Of a stretch of DNA of 39,845 bases, positions 20,641 to 33,838 are shown in pieces; within the stretch, counting starts at the first letter, position 1, and every line of letters starts with the position of its first letter. The stretch is from a virus: the IMG/VR virus record IMGVR_UViG_3300004463_000277, positions 1 through 39,845 of that record. The stretch is one strand, 5' to 3'. The notes beneath the pieces were generated by a model. The model was given only the letters and a program-made list of their open reading frames with translations. It ran no database searches and was not told the origin of the DNA. Both the position numbers and the translations under genes were made by a program.

Positions 20641-20733
20641 ATGACGGAACACGGCAACGCGCGTCTGGAGATCGGAGGTTCGCGGCTTGTGCGGGTGGCA
20701 GATGGGGAGATGTATGAATTACGAACGCAGTGA
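20641..20733 (+). CDS. 30-residue ORF
   Basis: ATG 20641 follows the NinB-like stop by two bases with ggatggagtgagt upstream acting as SD. The peptide MTEHGNARLEIGGSRLVRVA then DGEMYELRTQ overlaps the erf start. It may only couple translation between the two recombination genes. Confidence 0.4.
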   Translation: MTEHGNARLEIGGSRLVRVADGEMYELRTQ

Positions 20734-21616
20734 GCACATTGGAGAGCTTGTTAAGGCGCTTGTTTCCGCGCAATCGCTCATGGGGGCGGCTGCCAAGGAT
20801 GCCAAGAACCCGCATTTCGGGTCAAAGTATGCCGACCTCGCAGCCTGTTTCGATGCCTGCAAGAAGGTGCTGACCAATAACGGGTTGGCGATTCTACAGC
20901 CGGCCACGGCAGACGGGGCAAAGGTGACCGTCACCACCATCCTGGCGCATATTTCTGGGCAGTGGATTTCGAGCGATCTTACATTGACTTCGGATAAGGG
21001 AACTCCGCAGGCGCTCGGCAGTTGTCTGACATATGCCCGTAGATATGGGCTCTCGGCGCTGATTGGGCTGGCTGCTGACGATGACGACGGCAATGAGGCC
21101 AGCGGGCGCGGGGAATCGCAGGACTCGCCCGCCAGGGGCAAGAAAGCGGCCCAGGAAGTTGCTGATCGCAAGGTTCAGGAGATGAAGTCTCCGCCAGCCA
21201 AGAACCCGAAGATGCTGGAGGCTTTCGCGCAGATGAAGCAGCAGCTTGGCGATGCGCTCTACGCGATGGTGCTCGGCGAATACTCCTACAAGTCGGCGGA
21301 TGAGATTCCCGACCGGGAGAGCGGTGATTCGGTCTACAAGCGCATGGGCGTGGTGAACAAGATTGCTCAAGCGGCGGCGCACGGCGAGCTCCTGAACCCC
21401 GGCATCACGCCGGAAATCTTCTCCCGCCTGCCCGATTCGAGCGTGGTGGAAGTGCTGAAGCAGTACAAGGCCAAGCTGGCGAACCTGATCGGCTCGGATG
21501 TCGCCAGTGACGAGTATGAAGTGCTGCGCGGGAAGTCGGCGGATATGTGGACGTTCGTCAACGTTCTGGAAGCCACGGTGAAGAAGCACGCGAAATCGCA
21601 GGGGATAGCTTCGTAG
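20714..21616 (+). CDS. erf: ERF-family single-strand annealing recombinase
   Basis: ATG 20714 (ggggag nine bases upstream) gives 300 residues. The N-terminal ERF domain is clear: KNPHFGSKYADLAACFDACK, KVLTNNGLAILQP, HISGQWISSDLTL and TPQALGSCLTYARRYGLSAL followed by IGLAADDDDGNEA. ERF proteins anneal complementary ssDNA and can circularise incoming phage DNA, as in P22. The C-terminal half is helical and less conserved. The gene ends directly at an intrinsic terminator, closing the recombination block. Confidence 0.93.
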   Translation: MNYERSEHIGELVKALVSAQSLMGAAAKDAKNPHFGSKYADLAACFDACKKVLTNNGLAILQPATADGAKVTVTTILAHISGQWISSDLTLTSDKGTPQALGSCLTYARRYGLSALIGLAADDDDGNEASGRGESQDSPARGKKAAQEVADRKVQEMKSPPAKNPKMLEAFAQMKQQLGDALYAMVLGEYSYKSADEIPDRESGDSVYKRMGVVNKIAQAAAHGELLNPGITPEIFSRLPDSSVVEVLKQYKAKLANLIGSDVASDEYEVLRGKSADMWTFVNVLEATVKKHAKSQGIAS

Positions 21617-21808: not shown

Positions 21809-22021
21809 ATGAGCATCGGTGAACTGATGTGTCGGGTGTTTCATCGCAAGGTGATGTATGCGGGAAGCGCTGTTTACCGATGTAGGGAGTGTTTGAGGGA
21901 ATACAAGGTGCCTTGGGCTGCTACCTGTCGCGCAGACCGTCGAGAGAGTAGCGAGCCCGGTAATCACAGCGACCAGCCCGTGCTGGCTACAGCCGCTTGC
22001 CGGAGAGTGGAGAACATATGA
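21809..22021 (+). CDS. Small Cys-containing protein ending in a repeat cassette
   Basis: ATG 21809 gives 70 residues: MSIGELMCRVFHRKVMY, then YRCRECLREYKVPW (C-x2-C). The last 15 codons include the 11-bp element CCGCTTGCCGG shared with three other loci, so the C-terminal end is cassette-derived. SD is weak, and upstream RNA structure may control it. Unknown function. Confidence 0.5.
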   Translation: MSIGELMCRVFHRKVMYAGSAVYRCRECLREYKVPWAATCRADRRESSEPGNHSDQPVLATAACRRVENI

Positions 22022-22243: not shown

Positions 22244-22627
22244 ATGAACTGGACCGAGAAGGACATCAACTCGCGCGGCTCCTCCAGACCAGGAAAGGTG
22301 CGCAATATCGCGCCAGCGCACGAGCGGGTGTTTCAAGGCCGCGTGTATCACTCCAAAGCTGAATGTGTGTACGCCCAGGAGCTTGAGCTACAGCGGATGG
22401 CGAAAGCAATCATCGGGTGGGATTCGCAGATTCGGTTCCCCATCATCGTGAACGAGCAGAAGATTTGCACGGTGGTGGTGGATTTCCAGGTCTATCACCT
22501 GGACGGCTCGCGCGAGTGCATCGAGGTTAAGGGCTGGGAATCGGAAGTGTACCGAATCAAGGCGAAGCTGTTCCGCGCGACTTATCCAAAAGTGAAATAC
22601 ACGGTGGTCAAGGTGGGCAAGCAATGA
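22244..22627 (+). CDS. DUF1064-type nuclease
   Basis: ATG 22244 gives 127 residues. The order VYHSKAECVYAQELELQRMA, FPIIVNEQKICTVVVDFQVY and CIEVKGWESEVYRIKAKLF, then YPKVKYTVVKVG fits DUF1064, a PD-(D/E)xK-like phage nuclease family: E27-like helix, D in VVDF and E-x-K in EVKG. Such proteins probably act as Holliday-junction or structure-specific nucleases in place of RusA. It overlaps the following gene by four bases. Confidence 0.8.
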   Translation: MNWTEKDINSRGSSRPGKVRNIAPAHERVFQGRVYHSKAECVYAQELELQRMAKAIIGWDSQIRFPIIVNEQKICTVVVDFQVYHLDGSRECIEVKGWESEVYRIKAKLFRATYPKVKYTVVKVGKQ

Positions 22628-22974
22628 ACCAGATGCCTTTATTCGAGGCTCCGCGGCAGTTCACGGATGCCCGGTTGGACGCCAAGGAGCAGGTGCGCCT
22701 GAATCGTCAATGCGTGGCGATTCTGCGGTACATGGTAAGCCGTGAACGGGTGTCCAATTCCGAACTGAACGAAGTTGCCTTCCGTTATAGCGCCCGGATT
22801 TACGACCTGAAGAAAGCGGGCATCGGCATTGAAATTGTGGAGCGCAACCGCGAAACGGGGGTCAACTGGTACGCCTTCTACTCGCCGGATGACCGGGCCC
22901 GAGCGCTCGCCGCGCTCTCGGAATCCGTGAACGACGGCGCGGCAGGACCGGCCAACAAAGAGGGCTCCCGGTGA
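22624..22974 (+). CDS. Winged-helix protein with cassette C-terminus
   Basis: The 116-residue product has a wHTH: LNRQCVAILRYMVSRERVSN, SELNEVAFRYSARIYDLKKA, then wing IGIEIVERNRETGVNWYAFY. This pattern is common in phage early operons ('RYSARIYDLRKAG'). Residues from about 95 on (ALSESVNDGAAGPANKE) are the first copy of a dispersed cassette. It may be a DNA-binding accessory factor for replication. Confidence 0.65.
   Translation: MNQMPLFEAPRQFTDARLDAKEQVRLNRQCVAILRYMVSRERVSNSELNEVAFRYSARIYDLKKAGIGIEIVERNRETGVNWYAFYSPDDRARALAALSESVNDGAAGPANKEGSR
22909..22962 (+). repeat. ALSES...GPxNKE cassette, copy 1
   Basis: gcgctcgccgcgctctcgg to ggccaacaaagagg. Further copies lie at 30964-31020, 31401-31454, 31897-31951 and 32834-32890. 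Copies 1 and 3 share gccgcgct(c/a)tcggaatc and aacaaagag, similarity that extends to silent positions. Confidence 0.75.
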
Positions 22975-24681: not shown

Positions 24682-24825
24682 ATGCTGAGAACACGTGAGG
24701 AACTGGAGAGCAAACCAAAGCCGTTGGACCGTGCTGGAGCAACCGTTGAGGGCACGTCGAGTGCGGCGGAGCCTTTGCCCGTTGGTGCTGTCGTGCCTAG
24801 CCGCTTGCCGGAGCGTGGGCAATGA
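24682..24825 (+). CDS. 47-residue ORF carrying a full KPLDRA cassette
   Basis: ATG 24682 follows the previous TGA by one base. The product is MLRTREELESK plus the cassette KPLDRAGATVEGTSSAAEPL and ending PVGAVVPSRLPERGQ. The cassette at DNA level (24718-24811) recurs at 28369, 29488, 33689 and as parts elsewhere. The paralogue at 28357 shares KPxDRA, S-A-A and AVVPSRLP. It may be a small phage peptide or a cassette that happens to be open. Confidence 0.45.
   Translation: MLRTREELESKPKPLDRAGATVEGTSSAAEPLPVGAVVPSRLPERGQ
24718..24811 (+). repeat. KPLDRA cassette, reference copy
   Basis: Begins aagccgttggaccgtgctgg, has gtcgagtgcggcg in the middle and ends gtgcctagccgcttgccgg. Other copies: 28369-28465 (full), 29488-29567 (full but decayed 3'), 33689-33780 (full, diverged), 30184-30215 and 31197-31213 (5' part), 21993-22003 (3' part). 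Confidence 0.8.
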
Positions 24826-27124: not shown

Positions 27125-27147
27125 ACGATGCTAAACGCTTTGGAATG

Positions 27148-27197
27148 TGGTGGGCCCGACAGAACTCGAATCTGTGACCTCTACCGTGTCAAGGTAG
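27148..27197 (-). other. attP: attP core: 3' half of tRNA-Val(GAC)
   Basis: On the minus strand this reads as anticodon arm CTACC-TTGACAC-GGTAG (anticodon GAC), a 5-nt variable loop AGGTC, T arm ACAGA-TTCGAGT-TCTGT, acceptor strand CGGGCCC, A and CCA. The 5' half (D arm, acceptor GGGCCCG) is missing next to it, so it is not a full gene. Such half tRNAs next to int are attP cores that rebuild the host tRNA on integration. The 150 bp to the right hold a 7-bp stem pair (27291-27297 with 27310-27316) that may be an arm-type site. Confidence 0.85.
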
Positions 27198-27345
27198 AAC
27201 GTCATGGTGAAACGGTGGGACTTGCAGGCGGTCCGCCCAATTGGCGCGGAGTTGAGCGGGGCGCTCGCAGCACGAAAATGGTTCGGCGTCCCGTGCCAAG
27301 CTGTTTTGTGGCACGGATTCGTAGTGGTTCGGCAAGGAGCGGAGA

Positions 27346-28356: not shown

Positions 28357-28476
28357 GTGGAAAAATCTAAGCCGTGGGACCGTGCTGCCGACGTGGGGCA
28401 CAGGGATTCCGAGAGTGCGGCGAACGTTGGCGTCGGGGATGCTGTTGTGCCTAGCCGCTTGCCGGGACTTCGATGA
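28357..28476 (+). CDS. 39-residue ORF with KPxDRA cassette (paralogue of 24682)
   Basis: GTG 28357 has aaggagtagaga as SD. The peptide MEKSKPWDRAADVGHRDSES then AANVGVGDAVVPSRLPGLR keeps the KPxDRA, ESAA and AVVPSRLP blocks of the 24682 ORF. DNA identity extends over both ends of the cassette (28369-28465), including GCTGTTGTGCCTAGCCGCTT. Its TGA overlaps the next ATG. Confidence 0.45.
   Translation: MEKSKPWDRAADVGHRDSESAANVGVGDAVVPSRLPGLR
28369..28465 (+). repeat. KPLDRA cassette, copy 2
   Basis: aagccgtgggaccgtgctg at the left end, gagagtgcggcg in the middle, gctgttgtgcctagccgctt at the right end. About the same length as the reference copy but with a diverged interior. Confidence 0.8.
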
Positions 28477-29027
28477 AGCTCATGCTTGTGCCTCTGACTT
28501 TGCGCGCAGCGAACCAATTCGTGGAGCAGTTCCACCGTCACAACGGGCGCACAGCTCGGGACGGCGGCAAGTTCGCAGTCGGAGCGTCGGATGGTAACGG
28601 GTTGGTGGGGGTTGCGATTGTTGGTAGACCGCTGGCACGGTTACTCAATGACGACTGGACCGCTGAAGTTTTGCGCTCGTGTGTACTGGACACGGCCCCA
28701 AAGGGGACAAACTCGTTCCTATATGGTGCTTGCTGGAGGGCATGGCGTGCGATGGGTGGTCGCAAACTAATTACATACACACTTGCCACCGAGTCGGGAG
28801 CATCGCTTCGTGGAGCGGGTTGGACGGTGGTCGCCGAGTGTAAACCAAGTAGCGGGTGGAATCGCGAAGCGCTAGGCAGAATGCGCGATTGGCAACCCAT
28901 CTATGGGCAGGCAAAATTTCGGTGGGAGATTTCAGCACCCAGCACCAACCCGCAGCCAGCATCCACCGGGCTCGCTGAACCTTCGGCCCGCGCCGAGACA
29001 AGTAAGGCAACGCCTGAGAATCTTTGA
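28473..29027 (+). CDS. XF1762-like GNAT-related phage protein
   Basis: ATG 28473 overlaps the previous TGA. The 184-residue product shows the XF1762-family order: VPLTLRAANQFVEQFHRHNG, GKFAVGASDGNGLVGVAIVG, RPLARLLNDDWTAEVLRSCV, NSFLYGACWRAWRAMGGRKL and ITYTLATESGASLRGAGW. The fold is GNAT-like; an acetyl transfer or DNA-modification-linked role has been discussed for related phage proteins but is not established. The C-terminal 30 residues (STGLAEPSARAETS) match the tail of the gene at 18459. Confidence 0.7.
   Translation: MKLMLVPLTLRAANQFVEQFHRHNGRTARDGGKFAVGASDGNGLVGVAIVGRPLARLLNDDWTAEVLRSCVLDTAPKGTNSFLYGACWRAWRAMGGRKLITYTLATESGASLRGAGWTVVAECKPSSGWNREALGRMRDWQPIYGQAKFRWEISAPSTNPQPASTGLAEPSARAETSKATPENL
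28964..29005 (+). repeat. Dispersed cassette TGLAxP...AETS, copy 2
   Basis: End of the XF1762-like gene; ccgggctcgctgaacc and cgccgagacaagta align with copy 1 at 18809. Confidence 0.7.
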
Positions 29028-29044
29028 AACGGAATCGAATACCA

Positions 29045-29437
29045 ATGACTGAACCGAAACAGACTGCGGAACAACGCGCTGATTTGCTTGAGCTGTGGCT
29101 TGAATGCTCTGGCGAAAACCTTAACGAGCACATCTTCAACTTCGCTCGGCGGCTGACGGCAGCCTCCCAGAGGAGAGCAGAGGAAGCAGAGCGGCGCGTA
29201 GTTCGCATTCCACACTGTGTTGCAGTTGATCCCATTGAACCGGCGCGAGAGTTGTTCTTTCGCAATGGTACGTCTGCCTATGTGTGGGTGTGTAACGGGT
29301 GCTTACGGGTGTGGCCAACCCGTTCGGGAGCGCAATTATGCTGTGCCGCTCAGCGCCTCACCGAACCCGAGAGCGAGAAGCCGACCACTTGTCGCGCCGA
29401 TGGGAAGCCCTGCAATTGTGACAAGGGAGGCTCCTAA
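29045..29437 (+). CDS. Zinc-binding small protein
   Basis: ATG 29045 (alternative TTG 29024 in frame) gives 130 residues. A helical N-terminus (QTAEQRADLLELWLECSGEN) precedes a Cys-rich half: VWVCNGCLRVW, QLCCAAQ and CRADGKPCNCDKGGS. It likely binds zinc. Its TAA overlaps the next ATG (TAATG). Unknown function. Confidence 0.5.
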   Translation: MTEPKQTAEQRADLLELWLECSGENLNEHIFNFARRLTAASQRRAEEAERRVVRIPHCVAVDPIEPARELFFRNGTSAYVWVCNGCLRVWPTRSGAQLCCAAQRLTEPESEKPTTCRADGKPCNCDKGGS

Positions 29438-29571
29438 TGCCCGCAAAAGCTAAGGCGCTGTCTGGTACCTCCGTAGAGGAAGCGGCAAAGGCGTTGGACC
29501 GTGCTGTCTACACGTTCCATTCTGTATCGAGTGCGGCAAGTGAAGCGAACAGGAGGTGCTGTTGTGCATAA
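29437..29571 (+). CDS. 44-residue ORF with partial KALDRA cassette
   Basis: ATG 29437 overlaps the upstream TAA. The peptide MPAKAKALSGTSVEEAAKAL then DRAVYTFHSVSSAASEA keeps the cassette start (AKALDRA, S-S-A-A) and ends RRCCCA at TAA 29569. The 3' part of the cassette (TGCTGTTGTGC) is turned into the start of the next gene. A degenerate third copy. Confidence 0.45.
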   Translation: MPAKAKALSGTSVEEAAKALDRAVYTFHSVSSAASEANRRCCCA

Positions 29572-29929
29572 AAACCGGCTGGAGGTTAACGAGCATCGGT
29601 ATACACGCGCGCTTGCGGAAGCCATTCTCAACATCAAGGAGGCTGACCCACGCGAGCGCATAGAGGCTGTTTATCGAGCCTGCAATGCGACGCTTCACCA
29701 CATGGAACAGGTAATAAACGAGATGCAGCGGCTCCTTGTGGATGCGGCGATGGTCGCGCCACGGGTCTTGGTTGTTTGTAAGCACGGCGACCCGCTTTGC
29801 CCGTGCCCGGATGGCGATATGTGCCACTACGAAGGCCCGAATCCGTGGAAAGCGGCAGCGGACAGCACCAAGCCGCCGCAAGCCCTCGCAGGGGGCACGT
29901 CGCCGTGTGCCGAAAAAGGCGACAAGTAG
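29564..29929 (+). CDS. Phage protein with C-terminal Cys/His motif
   Basis: GTG 29564 is chosen because AGGAGG lies eight bases upstream. The 121-residue product has a helical domain (RYTRALAEAILNIKEADPRE, HMEQVINEMQRLL) and a metal-site-like motif VVCKHGDPLCPCPDGDMCHY. This motif is seen in other small phage proteins of unknown role. The tail (TKPPQALAGGTSPC) is low complexity. Confidence 0.6.
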   Translation: MHKNRLEVNEHRYTRALAEAILNIKEADPRERIEAVYRACNATLHHMEQVINEMQRLLVDAAMVAPRVLVVCKHGDPLCPCPDGDMCHYEGPNPWKAAADSTKPPQALAGGTSPCAEKGDK

Positions 29930-29953: not shown

Positions 29954-30175
29954 ATGAACCAGCCTGACCGAGAGGAAGCGTACGCAGCCGCCCTTGATTT
30001 TTTCCAGGGTTGGCGTTCCAAATCGCTAGATCAGTTGATGGACAACTTTATACGCGAACGCCTCGAAGCCCGTGCTCTGGAAGCGGAGCGAGCGGCGGAA
30101 GCGTCTACATTTGCCCGCGACGCAATGGCATGTCACGAGCGCGCCTCCAAACTGAGGGAGCAGAAGCAGCCATGA
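29954..30175 (+). CDS. Small helical protein
   Basis: ATG 29954 follows aaaaaggaaatcagtgga. The 73-residue product is mostly coiled helix (EEAYAAALDFFQGWRSKSLD, RLEARALEAERAAEASTF). It overlaps the next gene at ATGA. Not recognised. Confidence 0.5.
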   Translation: MNQPDREEAYAAALDFFQGWRSKSLDQLMDNFIRERLEARALEAERAAEASTFARDAMACHERASKLREQKQP

Positions 30176-30345
30176 GCGAGCAGAACAAGCCGTTGGCCGG
30201 TCCTACAGCGGCCGTCGCACGTAGTCGGTCAGCGCGGCGGTTGCAGGCGTCGCTGAGATGCGACGAGTGTGGCCGGTTCGTGGCGTTTGCGGATATCGAC
30301 GCGGGGATAGCGCGACATCAGTTGGTATCCCCCGACTCCTACTAA
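30172..30345 (+). CDS. 57-residue protein: cassette start plus zinc motif
   Basis: ATG 30172 overlaps the previous TGA. The product begins MSEQNKPLAGPTAAVARS, whose DNA shares 17 identical bases (aacaagccgttggccgg) with the gene at 31044, then continues LRCDECGRFVAFADIDAG, with one C-x2-C and a later His. It shows the cassette at an N-terminus rather than a C-terminus. Confidence 0.45.
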   Translation: MSEQNKPLAGPTAAVARSRSARRLQASLRCDECGRFVAFADIDAGIARHQLVSPDSY

Positions 30346-30819: not shown

Positions 30820-31047
30820 ATGCCTAAGAAGAAGCCATCCAAGCATGCAGGCGGTCGCCCGAGGGGCGTCGAGATGCCCTGCGGCTGGGGCTGCGGGAAG
30901 AAGTTGACGGCTCGAGAGATGCGGGAGCACTTCACCACTTGCCCGAAGCGGCCAGCCGCATCCTCCGCGCTCTCAGACTCCGTGAAGCAACGGCGGGGCA
31001 GGAGTGGGCCAACAAAAGAAAATCTTGCAACGGGTGAGCATCTATGA
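30820..31047 (+). CDS. Small zinc-finger protein with cassette tail
   Basis: ATG 30820, 75 residues: basic head KKKPSKHAGGRPRG, a C-x3-C-x13-H-x4-C finger (MPCGWGCGKKLTAREMREHF, TTC), then the cassette ALSDSVKQRRGRSGPTKEN (30964-31020). The finger resembles small DNA- or RNA-binding C2HC domains. It overlaps the next gene at ATGA. Confidence 0.55.
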   Translation: MPKKKPSKHAGGRPRGVEMPCGWGCGKKLTAREMREHFTTCPKRPAASSALSDSVKQRRGRSGPTKENLATGEHL

Positions 31048-31991
31048 GCTTGACTGATACAGAAATCGCTGAGATAAAGGCGCTCTTCACGGATGAGCGA
31101 GTGGATATTCAGGGACGGGTGCGATCGGCGGGGTTGAAACTCATCGAATCGCTGAAGGAGGCGCGAGCTGGGAACGAGCGCTTGCGAAAAGACGATAACA
31201 AGCCGTTGGCCGGATTTCCAAGACGCAATCAGGTGCAGTTAATGAGCGCTGGCGAACTTGCTATACGGCAAGCCATTGCGGTGATTGAGGCAATGGGTTG
31301 CGATACGCGCCTCACGGATGCAGTGGCGTTGCTTGGAAAGGCGCAAGACCGCGTGGCGGATTTCGTTGATGGAATAAATCCAGAAACGACGGTGTTTCCC
31401 GCCGCGCTATCGGAATCTCCCAGCGAAGGCGGCAGTAGTGGACCAAACAAAGAGACTCGCGAGCCAGCGAACTCGATTGATTGGGCACAGCAACGCGGGC
31501 ATGTAAATCTTGAGATTTCAGAACTACGCGCCTGGGGTGATGATTGGGAAAGGCGCTGCATTCTTGCGATTGAATTGCGGGATAGCGAGCGAGCGCGGCA
31601 TAAGTTGTCAGAAATGGCCCTCCGGCGCGAGAGGGATGCGTGGAAACAAAAGGCTGAAGAACTGGAGTTCGTATTGGATGGTGTGGACGTATCTAACAGC
31701 CCACAAGCTTCTCAGAAGTTGCCCGATCCTCTCGCAACCGCCAATGCTGGCACGAGCGCGGGGGATGTGTACGTATGGCCAGCGTTCACACTCACAGGCG
31801 AAGGCCGTGGCGTAGCACACACGGATACCCAGTTGGTTGAGCTTGTGCGGAAAGCTCTAAGATTGTCACCAATTGGTGAAGTTCTGGTCACGGAAAGCGC
31901 CGCGCTATCGAATACCTCGACGGTAGAAGCAGGACCAGCCAACCAAAAAGAATTTGGCTCTCCGCATCCAATCGACAGCGGGGAAGGATAG
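31044..31991 (+). CDS. Mosaic 315-residue protein with three internal cassettes
   Basis: ATG 31044. Helical segments alternate with cassettes: helix 1-45; NKPLAGF cassette (about 52-58, DNA 31197-31213); helical AIRQAIAVIEAMGCDTRLTD; AALSESPSEGGSSGPNKE (about 121-138); coiled ERRCILAIELRDSERARHKL and WKQKAEELEFVLDG; a beta-type segment DVYVWPAFTLTGEG; and AALSNTSTVEAGPANQKE near the C-terminus. Elsewhere these cassettes lie at ends of small genes, so this looks like several small ORFs fused by them. The frame stays open after TAG 31989-31991 for 51 codons. Confidence 0.55.
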   Translation: MSLTDTEIAEIKALFTDERVDIQGRVRSAGLKLIESLKEARAGNERLRKDDNKPLAGFPRRNQVQLMSAGELAIRQAIAVIEAMGCDTRLTDAVALLGKAQDRVADFVDGINPETTVFPAALSESPSEGGSSGPNKETREPANSIDWAQQRGHVNLEISELRAWGDDWERRCILAIELRDSERARHKLSEMALRRERDAWKQKAEELEFVLDGVDVSNSPQASQKLPDPLATANAGTSAGDVYVWPAFTLTGEGRGVAHTDTQLVELVRKALRLSPIGEVLVTESAALSNTSTVEAGPANQKEFGSPHPIDSGEG

Positions 31992-32147: not shown

Positions 32148-32196
32148 GACACACCCGGCGTTGAAAACACAGCAATTATAATTTTCCAGCCTGATA

Positions 32197-32239
32197 TAAT
32201 CAAGTCTTGACATAATCAAGCGCTTCTGACATAATCAAG
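32197..32239 (+). promoter_or_regulatory. Leaderless promoter with three TAATCAAG repeats
   Basis: TTGACA (32207-32212), 17 nt, CATAAT (32230-32235), six nt, ATG 32242. The same -35, spacer length and -10 hexamer occur at 16626. TAATCAAG appears at 32197-32204, 32213-32220 and 32232-32239, so the repeats overlap both promoter elements. The surrounding 80 bp are AT-rich. They may be regulator sites, or origin iterons. Confidence 0.7.
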
Positions 32240-32241
32240 TT

Positions 32242-32508
32242 ATGAGATACCACATTGATGGTTCCACCATAAACGTCGAGCTGACTTGCACCCTCGTGTA
32301 TGGCGTCGGCGCTGAAAGTCGAGATGACGCGGCACGCCAGGCTGCGCTGCTTAAATGCGATATCGAGCGCATCGGCGCGGAGCATGACAGGAGGGAAACA
32401 CCGCCAACGCTCGCAGAGGTGAAGTCCCTGCAAATAATGAAAGAGGAGATGTGGCTGCTCGAAGATATTGCCGCTGGCAACCGCGAGCCGGAAGATGAAG
32501 CTTCATAA
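32242..32508 (+). CDS. Small protein from a leaderless promoter
   Basis: ATG 32242 lacks an SD and coincides with the expected start of transcription. The 88-residue product is MRYHIDGSTINVELTCTLVY, then a helical part with DDAARQAALLKCDIERIGAE and a long acidic helix (LAEVKSLQIMKEEMWLLEDI). It looks like a small alpha/beta protein. No family recognised. The promoter repeats suggest tight control. Confidence 0.6.
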   Translation: MRYHIDGSTINVELTCTLVYGVGAESRDDAARQAALLKCDIERIGAEHDRRETPPTLAEVKSLQIMKEEMWLLEDIAAGNREPEDEAS

Positions 32509-32623: not shown

Positions 32624-32652
32624 TTGCTTATCGAGAAGGCGCTGAAGCCGTG
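32624..32652 (+). pseudogene. Remnant of a gene end (LIEKALKP-stop)
   Basis: The 21 bases tatcgagaaggcgctgaagcc (32629-32649) are identical to 33667-33687, where they encode the end IEKALKP of an intact gene. Here CTT ATC GAG ... CCG TGA encodes LIEKALKP-stop without a gene in front. It is best read as the leftover 3' end of a deleted relative. Confidence 0.55.
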
Positions 32653-32763
32653 AGCGAGATTCTTTTAGGCTGGTCCATCCTACAGCGATGGGGTACTGAG
32701 ATTCGAGAGCGCGGAGGGTGCAGATGGAGCCAGTTTACAGTGAATGTGTGCTGTGCCAGATGA
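32650..32763 (+). CDS. Possible 37-residue ORF
   Basis: GTG 32650 overlaps the TGA of the gene remnant. The product MSEILLGWSILQRWGTEIRE then RGGCRWSQFTVNVCCAR has no recognised relative and overlaps the next ORF in another frame. Weak. Confidence 0.25.
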   Translation: MSEILLGWSILQRWGTEIRERGGCRWSQFTVNVCCAR

Positions 32764-32897
32764 CGTGTTGGCGCAGGCTTTGCCGCCGATGTCGAGATAG
32801 GCATGATGTGATCGTGTGGCTTGTGCAGCGAATCGCCGCGCTGACCGCCAGCATCCCCTGTGCAGAGAGCGGTGGACCAACAAAAAAGGAAAGCTAA
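32724..32897 (+). CDS. 57-residue Cys-rich ORF ending in a cassette
   Basis: ATG 32724 (ggagggtgcag upstream) gives MEPVYSECVLCQMTCWRRLC and RRCRDRHDVIVWLVQ, with C-x2-C-x3-C and C-x2-C, likely zinc-binding. The C-terminal IAALTASIPCAESGGPTKKE is a degenerate copy of the ALS...GPxNKE cassette (32834-32890). The next ATG follows the TAA directly. Confidence 0.45.
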   Translation: MEPVYSECVLCQMTCWRRLCRRCRDRHDVIVWLVQRIAALTASIPCAESGGPTKKES

Positions 32898-33356
32898 ATG
32901 AGTGTTGACTTAACTCCGGTGTACGGATGTCGTGGCTGTGAAACGACGGGCGGGCGAATGTCCTGTGCGGTTCATGGACCAAACGGAGTGGCCTTACTGC
33001 GCTCCGAAACTGCTGAACTCACTACGCTCCGCGCCCAACTCACCGCCGAGCGGGAGCGGGCAGACCGATCCAAGGATCTGCTTGATGAGCTCGCACGAGT
33101 ATTGCTCGGTAAGCATCCGACTGACAGGTTCACCTACGAGCCTGATGCGCTAGTGCCTGCTGCTTGCGACGCCAAGCTCGATGCGGAGAGGCTGGATTGG
33201 CTGGCTGCGAATGTTGAGAACGTGTACGCGTTCAGAAACGTTAAGGATGAACGAGTCTACGTGACATATTGCTCGCACGAGATTGGTGATATCAGAAATA
33301 CAAACTTTCGCGCCGCCATCGACGCAGCACGCGAGAAGGGAGAGCAGAAGGGATGA
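32898..33356 (+). CDS. Phage hypothetical protein (RLDWL ... RAAIDAARE type)
   Basis: ATG 32898 behind aaaaaggaaagcta gives 152 residues. A Cys motif (YGCRGCETTGGRMSC), a coiled coil (ELTTLRAQLTAERERADRSK) and the C-terminal pattern DAERLDWLAANVENVYAF ... FRAAIDAAREKGE occur. The last pattern is common in phage accessory proteins. It overlaps the next gene by four bases. Confidence 0.6.
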   Translation: MSVDLTPVYGCRGCETTGGRMSCAVHGPNGVALLRSETAELTTLRAQLTAERERADRSKDLLDELARVLLGKHPTDRFTYEPDALVPAACDAKLDAERLDWLAANVENVYAFRNVKDERVYVTYCSHEIGDIRNTNFRAAIDAAREKGEQKG

Positions 33357-33691
33357 GCGACGCCATCGAATTACTATTGCAATCTTCGGATGACGACTGG
33401 AACGCCCATTCTCAGCATGCATTGGCGAGATTGACAGCTAAGACGAAACGCCAACGCGAGCGCATCGCTTCCCTTGAGGCAGCGCTGGAGGAGGCGAAGC
33501 GGGCCCTAGAGAAGGCGAGTATAAAACTCGGCGCAATCGAACGCGCTTGGGATGCTCGGCAAACCTACGGACAGGGCACGGCGGCATTCTTGAGTGTCGA
33601 TTGTTCGTTTGACTCAATACGTGAGTCGGTCGAAGGCAAGCGCATCATCGATGCCGCTCTCGCCACTATCGAGAAGGCGCTGAAGCCCTAG
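33353..33691 (+). CDS. Coiled-coil hypothetical protein
   Basis: ATG 33353, 112 residues. Residues about 27-62 form a strong coiled coil (LTAKTKRQRERIASLEAALE, EAKRALEKASIKL). The C-terminal FDSIRESVEGKRIIDAALAT then IEKALKP-stop shares 21 bases with the remnant at 32629. The TAG is followed by a further open frame that covers a degenerate KPLDRA cassette. Confidence 0.55.
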   Translation: MSDAIELLLQSSDDDWNAHSQHALARLTAKTKRQRERIASLEAALEEAKRALEKASIKLGAIERAWDARQTYGQGTAAFLSVDCSFDSIRESVEGKRIIDAALATIEKALKP

Positions 33692-33838
33692 CCGTTGGTC
33701 CGCAACTCGGCGTCCGTCGAAGTCATTGAAAGCGCGGTAATCATAGTACCCCCTCCGTTCTGGCTGCTGCCGCTTGCCGGGGAGTCCAAAACAAAACGGT
33801 AGCGATTTGTTTGGCGCATTGCTAACGTTCAAAGAGCA
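33692..33838 (+). repeat. Intergenic cassette copy and AAACAAA palindrome
   Basis: No start-bearing gene is seen here. A degenerate full-length KPLDRA cassette runs from ccgttgg (33691) to ccgcttgccgg (33770-33780). It is followed by AAACAAA (33789-33795), a 10-base spacer and TTTGTTT (33806-33812), a perfect palindrome. The lysozyme-like gene begins 26 bases further on, so this may be its control region. Confidence 0.6.

Follow-up and report, generated by a model that had tools for sequence, protein, structure and literature searches.

A family of short dispersed repeats, 13 copies of which lie mostly at gene borders in a 39,845-bp viral DNA, is read three times within a single 315-residue open reading frame, where two inverted copies bracket a fragment of the large chain of carbamoyl-phosphate synthase (CarB). 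In our estimate the chances are evenly balanced that these boundary repeats mark the joins of gene pieces, perhaps brought together by annealing through the ERF protein of the phage. The DNA (IMG/VR record IMGVR_UViG_3300004463_000277, positions 1 to 39,845) is referred to as the window, coordinates count from its first letter, and the features under discussion are collected in Table 1.

The repeats, approximately 62-70 bp long and located between 22.9 and 33.75 kb, emerged from a gapped self-comparison of pieces on both strands and then from a profile built on eight copies; a first listing of repeats had given parts of them only. A reading of the sequence alone had already held that the same cassette recurs, and the profiles bear this out, with the correction that the family runs in both orientations, six copies on the plus and seven on the minus strand. 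When 11 copies were left out in turn, each was regained by the profile of the other ten, ranking 11th, directly after the training copies, with scores of 11.0-26.8 bits against a best of 8.1-10.8 bits in the reversed window, the one sequence used as a control. The weakest, the inverted copy at 31704 (11.0 bits vs. 10.1 for the control), is marginal by that test alone; it reaches 35.6 bits with model R1, a score that is not independent, since the copy is one of that model's rows.

Pairwise identity among the copies is 27-62%, with a mean of 45% across orientations (42 pairs) as against 48% (15 pairs) and 47% (21 pairs) within one orientation. Since copies on opposite strands align as DNA, and the cross-orientation pairs are nearly as alike as the others, we rejected the idea that these are tails conserved purely at the peptide level. 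The motif CCGC(A/G)CT stands unchanged throughout the 11-copy alignment, a constancy that profile-based detection may favour, and a CCGGCAAGCGGC box stands on the gene-facing side of four minus copies, the partial copy at 21931 included.

Four members call for separate comment. The copy at 28955-29025 scored 10.7 bits before its inclusion (reversed-window best 9.2) and 14.0 bits (E 0.0015) with a model lacking it, while partial matches in four other virus records reach 11.3-13.1 bits; its reading frame is that of the other plus copies. The copy at 32828-32890 scored only 6.0 bits before inclusion, under the same reversed-window best of 9.2, and is absent from the model R1 listing at E 0.05. 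The partial copy at 21931 has a profile score of 7.0 bits, under the control at 8.8, and was accepted on the match of 21937-22016 to 33714-33793 (80 nt, 71%, E 4e-8), which shares the CCGGCAAGCGGC box. Finally, the 17-nt piece at 31197-31213 is at chance level by profile alone (2.8 bits) and is called from pairwise identity to the stretch within the copy at 30185-30250, such matches having a mean of 0.00 in 100 shuffles. An exact 21-nt repeat was also seen (32629-32649 and 33667-33687), forming the end of ORF 33353-33691 and recurring before another minus copy.

Table 1. Repeat copies and related features of the window
Position	Strand	Feature	Basis or remark
20687..21616	+	ERF-family single-strand annealing protein	PF04404, E 2.6e-26
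21931..22016	-	Partial copy with 5' extension, in ORF 21809-22021	Pairwise identity
22903..22968	+	Repeat copy, C-terminal tail of ORF 22624-22974	Leave-one-out, profile
24708..24775	-	Repeat copy in mini-ORF 24682-24825, which overlaps the next ATG (ATGA)	Leave-one-out, profile
28358..28433	-	Repeat copy in mini-ORF 28357-28476, which overlaps the Mom-like gene start (ATGA)	Leave-one-out, profile
28955..29025	+	Diverged copy, C-terminal tail of Mom-like gene 28473-29027	Profile, shared frame
29477..29546	-	Repeat copy in mini-ORF 29437-29571	Leave-one-out, profile
30185..30250	-	Repeat copy just past the start of ORF 30172-30345	19.9 bits, profile without this copy
30956..31028	+	Repeat copy, C-terminal tail of zinc-finger-like ORF 30820-31047	Leave-one-out, profile
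31044..31991	+	315-aa ORF	Proposed chimera M1-M2-(+)-M3-(-)-M4-(+)
31197..31213	-	Truncated remnant of the repeat, separating M1 from M2	17 nt identical to 30184-30200
31224..31391	+	M2	No relatives found; helices in low-confidence model
31392..31461	+	Repeat copy inside the 315-aa ORF	27.5 bits; leave-one-out 14.2 vs. reversed window 8.8
31461..31703	+	M3	No relatives found; codon score not above +1 frame
31704..31771	-	Inverted repeat copy inside the 315-aa ORF	30.6 bits; leave-one-out 11.0 vs. control 10.1
31764..31901	+	M4, CarB fragment	Flanked by inverted repeat copies; TIGR01369, NF003671 and phrog_29784 matches
31891..31960	+	Repeat copy, C-terminal part of the 315-aa ORF	36.8 bits; leave-one-out 26.8
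32652..32723	-	Repeat copy directly before ORF 32724-32897	Leave-one-out, profile
32828..32890	+	Diverged copy, C-terminal tail of ORF 32724-32897	Same reading frame, similar peptide
33678..33745	-	Repeat copy over the stop of ORF 33353-33691	Leave-one-out, profile

The repeat is asymmetric and has no structure of its own. Fold z-scores against shuffles ran from -1.05 to +1.41 in all 11 copies tested, with no consensus pair; neither palindromes nor terminal inverted repeats were present in the 11, and the 20-35 kb region gave no Rfam match. A hairpin, terminator or attC nature was rejected for want of a conserved fold and of an Rfam match. Model R1 found no full-length copy in 27 other virus records, nor was there any in 47 other loci (best 11.3 bits). 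DNA-pattern and peptide probes recovered no copy from IMG/VR, the two loci drawn out by the DNA-pattern probe scoring 7.2 and 3.9 bits at the matched place, which is chance level; because exact patterns test so diverged a family weakly, its absence elsewhere is not established. Short dispersed repeat pairs are not in themselves what sets the window apart, as it has 5 vs. 0-6 in 33 other loci of at least 7 kb (mostly shorter than the window); the single 13-copy family is. We did not find the family described in the open-access literature searched, a search too limited for it to be called unpublished.

Other repeats, in the relatives L014 and L024, appear by eye to differ in kind; among them is a 63-bp repeat around TACCGATACGTA near ORF starts in L024 (843-905 and 1638-1700), to the eye possibly an operator. 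In the window itself, three close copies of a ATAATCAAG motif, one preceded by TTGAC, resemble, to the eye, an array of operators or promoters at 32190-32245, upstream of ORF 32242-32508.

Ten of the 13 copies cover the start or the stop of a gene or come within 30 nt of it, against a random mean of 5.0 (P 0.006, on a gene list of our own choosing from which the mini-ORFs were left out). The exceptions are the three copies of the 315-aa ORF, at 345, 220 and 31 nt; the last of these, at 31891, misses the limit by one base, and only two copies are deep inside a gene. In recurring as a similar sequence at gene junctions, the repeat shows one of the features of phage boundary sequences. The plus copies form the C-terminal tails of five ORFs, the 315-aa ORF among them, and one more lies inside the latter. 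All six are read in the same frame, for which chance gives about (1/3)^5, though two share one ORF; a second frame is also open in four of the six. In some, that at 32828-32890 for example, the final stretch is rich in purines and immediately precedes a start. Of the seven minus copies, three occur in mini-ORFs of 39-47 codons before genes, two of these overlapping the next ATG, and a fourth falls just after the start of its ORF; the others lie directly before ORF 32724-32897, over the stop of ORF 33353-33691 and in the 315-aa ORF. Among minus copies within ORFs, counting the partial one at 21931, four of six share a frame, which is not significant. The proposal that the cassettes end small separate genes elsewhere therefore holds for the plus copies and fails for the minus copies, which are found mostly on the 5' side of genes; their role as internal linkers in the 315-aa ORF likewise applies to the two deep copies and not to the third, its C-terminal part.

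The 315-residue frame with its three cassettes is present as originally read, with three full copies by profile. Its segments are M1 (aa 1-50), M2 (aa 61-116), M3 (aa 139-221) and M4 (aa 238-287). Frame 0 has a codon score of 0.041, the other five ranging from -0.26 to -0.57, and is the best for M1, M2 and M4 taken separately, while for M3 and the plus copy at 31392 it scores no better than the +1 frame. Stops number 13 in the +1 and 18 in the +2 alternative frame, and the start ATG overlaps the stop of the preceding ORF 30820-31047 as ATGA. The ORF is presumably expressed. The single-sequence AlphaFold2 model contains helices only, with low-confidence coil over most of the cassettes and a mean pLDDT of 45, too poor for a fold search; the beta segments once proposed alongside the helical ones find no support in it.

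A probable origin can be given for one segment. M4 matches by profile about 43 residues of CarB, corresponding to residues 164-210 or thereabouts of 1052, with TIGR01369 (E 6.7e-8 with the segment, 1.1e-6 with the whole ORF), NF003671 (6.4e-8 and 1.3e-6) and, among PHROGs, phrog_29784 (5.6e-8); PDB entry 1bxr is matched at E 9e-4 and PF02786 at 0.0013, the latter below that family's cut-off. The CarB match (aa 241-286) coincides with the interval from the end of the minus copy at 31771 to the start of the plus copy at 31891. The two bracketing copies are 46% identical and so not specially alike. In the 1bxr alignment a tryptophan of M4 takes the position of CarB arginine 169, which presumably serves ATP binding. 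A complete CarB, of about 1050 residues, is not matched, which makes M4 a fragment and not a member of the family; what the inverted copies enclose is most likely, as judged from the profile matches, a remnant of a housekeeping enzyme gene and not a small phage gene. M4 also has weak similarity to an ORF of L047, another phage contig (41% over aa 17-50, E 0.006 in a search of that locus alone).

For the rest of the ORF, relatives are lacking. Among 50,697 phage records the full ORF gave 15 matches at E up to 1, all of them overlapping aa 231-287; carbamoyl-phosphate synthase is the annotation of three, and the remaining 12 come from unannotated records. Neither these records nor IMG/VR nor 12 related records yielded a full-length homologue; conserved full-length homologues, which the sequence-only reading had named as the finding that would speak against it, were thus missing from all three sets. 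Against PHROGs, Pfam and NCBIfam, M1, M2 and M3 gave nothing significant (best E 0.074); neither did M2 and M3 when run by themselves against the phage collection (best E 2 and 5), where M1 was covered only within the full ORF, and M2 had no match in IMG/VR. The prediction that each segment would match a stand-alone small phage protein accordingly failed for M1, M2 and M3, the fourth segment matching CarB instead.

Two further repeat-tailed ORFs have recognizable relatives. The product of ORF 28473-29027 is a Mom-like protein of DNA modification (phrog_1384, E 3.4e-29) that carries at its C terminus an additional tail derived from the repeat: aa 2-151 of its 184 residues match a 155-aa Pelagibacter phage protein, and the homology stops shortly before the repeat. 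In tblastn, three of the ten listed Mom relatives aligned as far as aa 170-175, past the repeat start; the annotated stops of those three lie earlier (locus 1044 vs. alignment ends of 1095-1125). ORF 30820-31047, whose zinc-finger match is below the cut-off (PF18574, E 4e-4), matches an ORF of L048 over aa 7-45 of 75, and again homology ends before the repeat. This is the pattern to be expected if the repeats mark joins. The suggestion that the 315-aa gene arose by fusion of small ORFs is partly supported: it gains from this pattern, from the want of any full-length homologue and from a CarB match that begins and ends at repeat copies, and loses in that M1, M2 and M3 have no significant match and M4 matches a housekeeping enzyme and not a small ORF.

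We suggest that the repeats act as boundary sequences: they would mark where unrelated pieces of DNA were joined, and probably help such joins to occur. A coding piece that acquires a plus copy at its end would gain an open C-terminal tail, and a minus copy would precede a coding piece. In the 315-aa ORF, pieces that are normally separate would have been joined without an intervening stop: M1 with M2, ended by a plus copy; M3; and M4, with a minus copy before it and a plus copy after. Capture of the carB piece would have needed at least one illegitimate join. The most likely agent would be the phage ERF protein, annealing diverged short homologies. The ERF of phage D3, together with its exonuclease, was roughly as efficient as lambda Red in recombining sequences that are 78% identical (PMC3945230); the copies here, at 27-62%, are below the identity tested for D3 ERF and may at present be poor annealing substrates. 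Simple recombination between direct repeats fails to explain both orientations of the repeat while the called genes point one way. Neither a sibling phage nor an unjoined site was found in IMG/VR or the 27 other virus records, with probes that are weak for so diverged a family. To speak of direct evidence for in-frame joining, as had been done, is thus too strong, no genome with the pieces unjoined having been found, and causality is not demonstrable from one genome only.

The window also encodes an integrase, matching phage integrase families, an SSB, and a match to an SU10-type adaptor below its cut-off. A search of genome contigs based on the integrase returned four remote integrases and recovered no host. 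Just after the integrase gene, the stretch 27145-27215, read as its reverse complement, resembles by eye a tRNA 3' half (Val-like) and is therefore possibly the attachment site; ARAGORN reported no tRNA.

Several known systems resemble this one. A model of homologous recombination at short conserved sequences is summarized in PMC3233612. Lambdoid boundary sequences, for their part, are short similar sequences at gene borders that could target module exchange, and they are shared between phages at the same place. The window repeat, in contrast, recurs at least 13 times in one genome and in both orientations, and is translated and found inside a gene. T4-type mobile regulatory cassettes carry a promoter and a stem-loop, and Arbiol et al. 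in 2010 reportedly thought that they mediate gene shuffling. They too are dispersed repeats among small variable genes, whereas the window repeat has no conserved fold or stem-loop and is part of the coding sequence. Integron cassettes are small genes each ending in a related attC repeat of ~60 bp, which as a single strand forms a hairpin with paired cores at its two ends. Small genes ending in a related repeat of that length are the common element; the window repeat lacks the fold, is of mixed orientation, and has a GTTGGAC-like core at one end only, in some copies, unlike an attC hairpin with its paired cores.

That the repeat is a selfish or transposable insertion element, like the Rickettsia palindromic elements or MITEs, which entered genes in frame and left the 315-aa ORF as a normal gene with three insertions, we regard as unlikely. 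The copies are indeed dispersed, in both orientations, with open frames inside ORFs, and the Rickettsia elements, a short repeat family lying in frame within unrelated genes, are known to insert in just this way (PMC10969869). However, those elements are described there as about 150 bp and palindromic, while the window repeat is about 65 bp, has no palindrome and, by the z-scores given above, no fold. In both ORFs tested its copy lies beyond the end of homology and not within a domain. Full-length copies, moreover, are absent from the other records and loci searched, and the carB piece is a fragment and not a gene interrupted by insertions.

Quite unlikely, in our view, is a cis-acting boundary site (a site for protein binding, an operator or a translational-coupling element) through which the 315-aa ORF merely reads. 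The invariant CCGC(A/G)CT would suit such a site, as would the minus-copy mini-ORFs, two of which overlap the next ATG, and the purine-rich ends of some plus copies before a start. Repeats dispersed at phage gene borders are also known from cluster K mycobacteriophages, as start-associated and extended start-associated sequences, the latter carrying 17-bp inverted repeats (PMC3203893). The cluster K sequences are found ahead of start codons, almost all of them pointing the same way, and are not coding tails; here six copies are coding tails or linkers, the orientations are mixed, and there is neither a conserved structure nor an Rfam family. It is improbable, finally, that the 315-aa ORF is a non-working graveyard of gene pieces between repeats, with one frame open by chance: the brevity of M4 and its tryptophan, the indifferent codon score of M3 and the lack of full-length relatives would agree with this, but the superiority of frame 0 overall and in three of the four segments, the stops in the +1 and +2 frames and the start overlapping the preceding stop do not.

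A comparable case of repeated gene ends is seen in L047 (3553-4666). There the 3' terminus of a gene that by eye looks sigma-factor-like is found twice more downstream, in front of small genes (97 bp at 79%). The two downstream copies share 42 bp exactly, each just before GTG-AAG, a possible start; the sequence differs from that of the window repeat. Between these copies lies a Cys-rich module, 20-25 residues long, which is present as well in window ORF 29564-29929 and, in other settings, in L004 and L048. This module, CK(H/Y)GDPxCPCxDGDMCHYxG, is found in four phage records (window 29564-29929, aa 72-96; L004:6725-6970; L047:4445-4912; L048:6133-6252), either within an ORF of 39 codons or linked to various partners.

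The ways in which phages gain new small genes, and the reason why the borders of modules coincide with those of genes or domains, are still debated between two models, boundary sequences and illegitimate recombination (PMC3233612), and repeated sequences are usually absent from phage genomes according to one paper (PMC3945230). A wider reading, which we consider a long shot, is that the repeat serves as a general gene-building platform, a translatable and asymmetric boundary sequence through which nearly every piece of DNA that the phage captures, a host carB scrap included, could become part of an expressed gene; on that reading the plus copy would be a ready C-terminal tail and the minus copy a coupled mini-ORF or a lead before the next piece. 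If so, this would be a process like exon shuffling without introns, with the 315-aa gene as an intermediate caught in the act. Should the repeats mark joins in the more limited sense proposed above, the window would hold a rare visible trace of phage gene building, and it offers a concrete case for testing repeat-guided joining against random joining plus selection.
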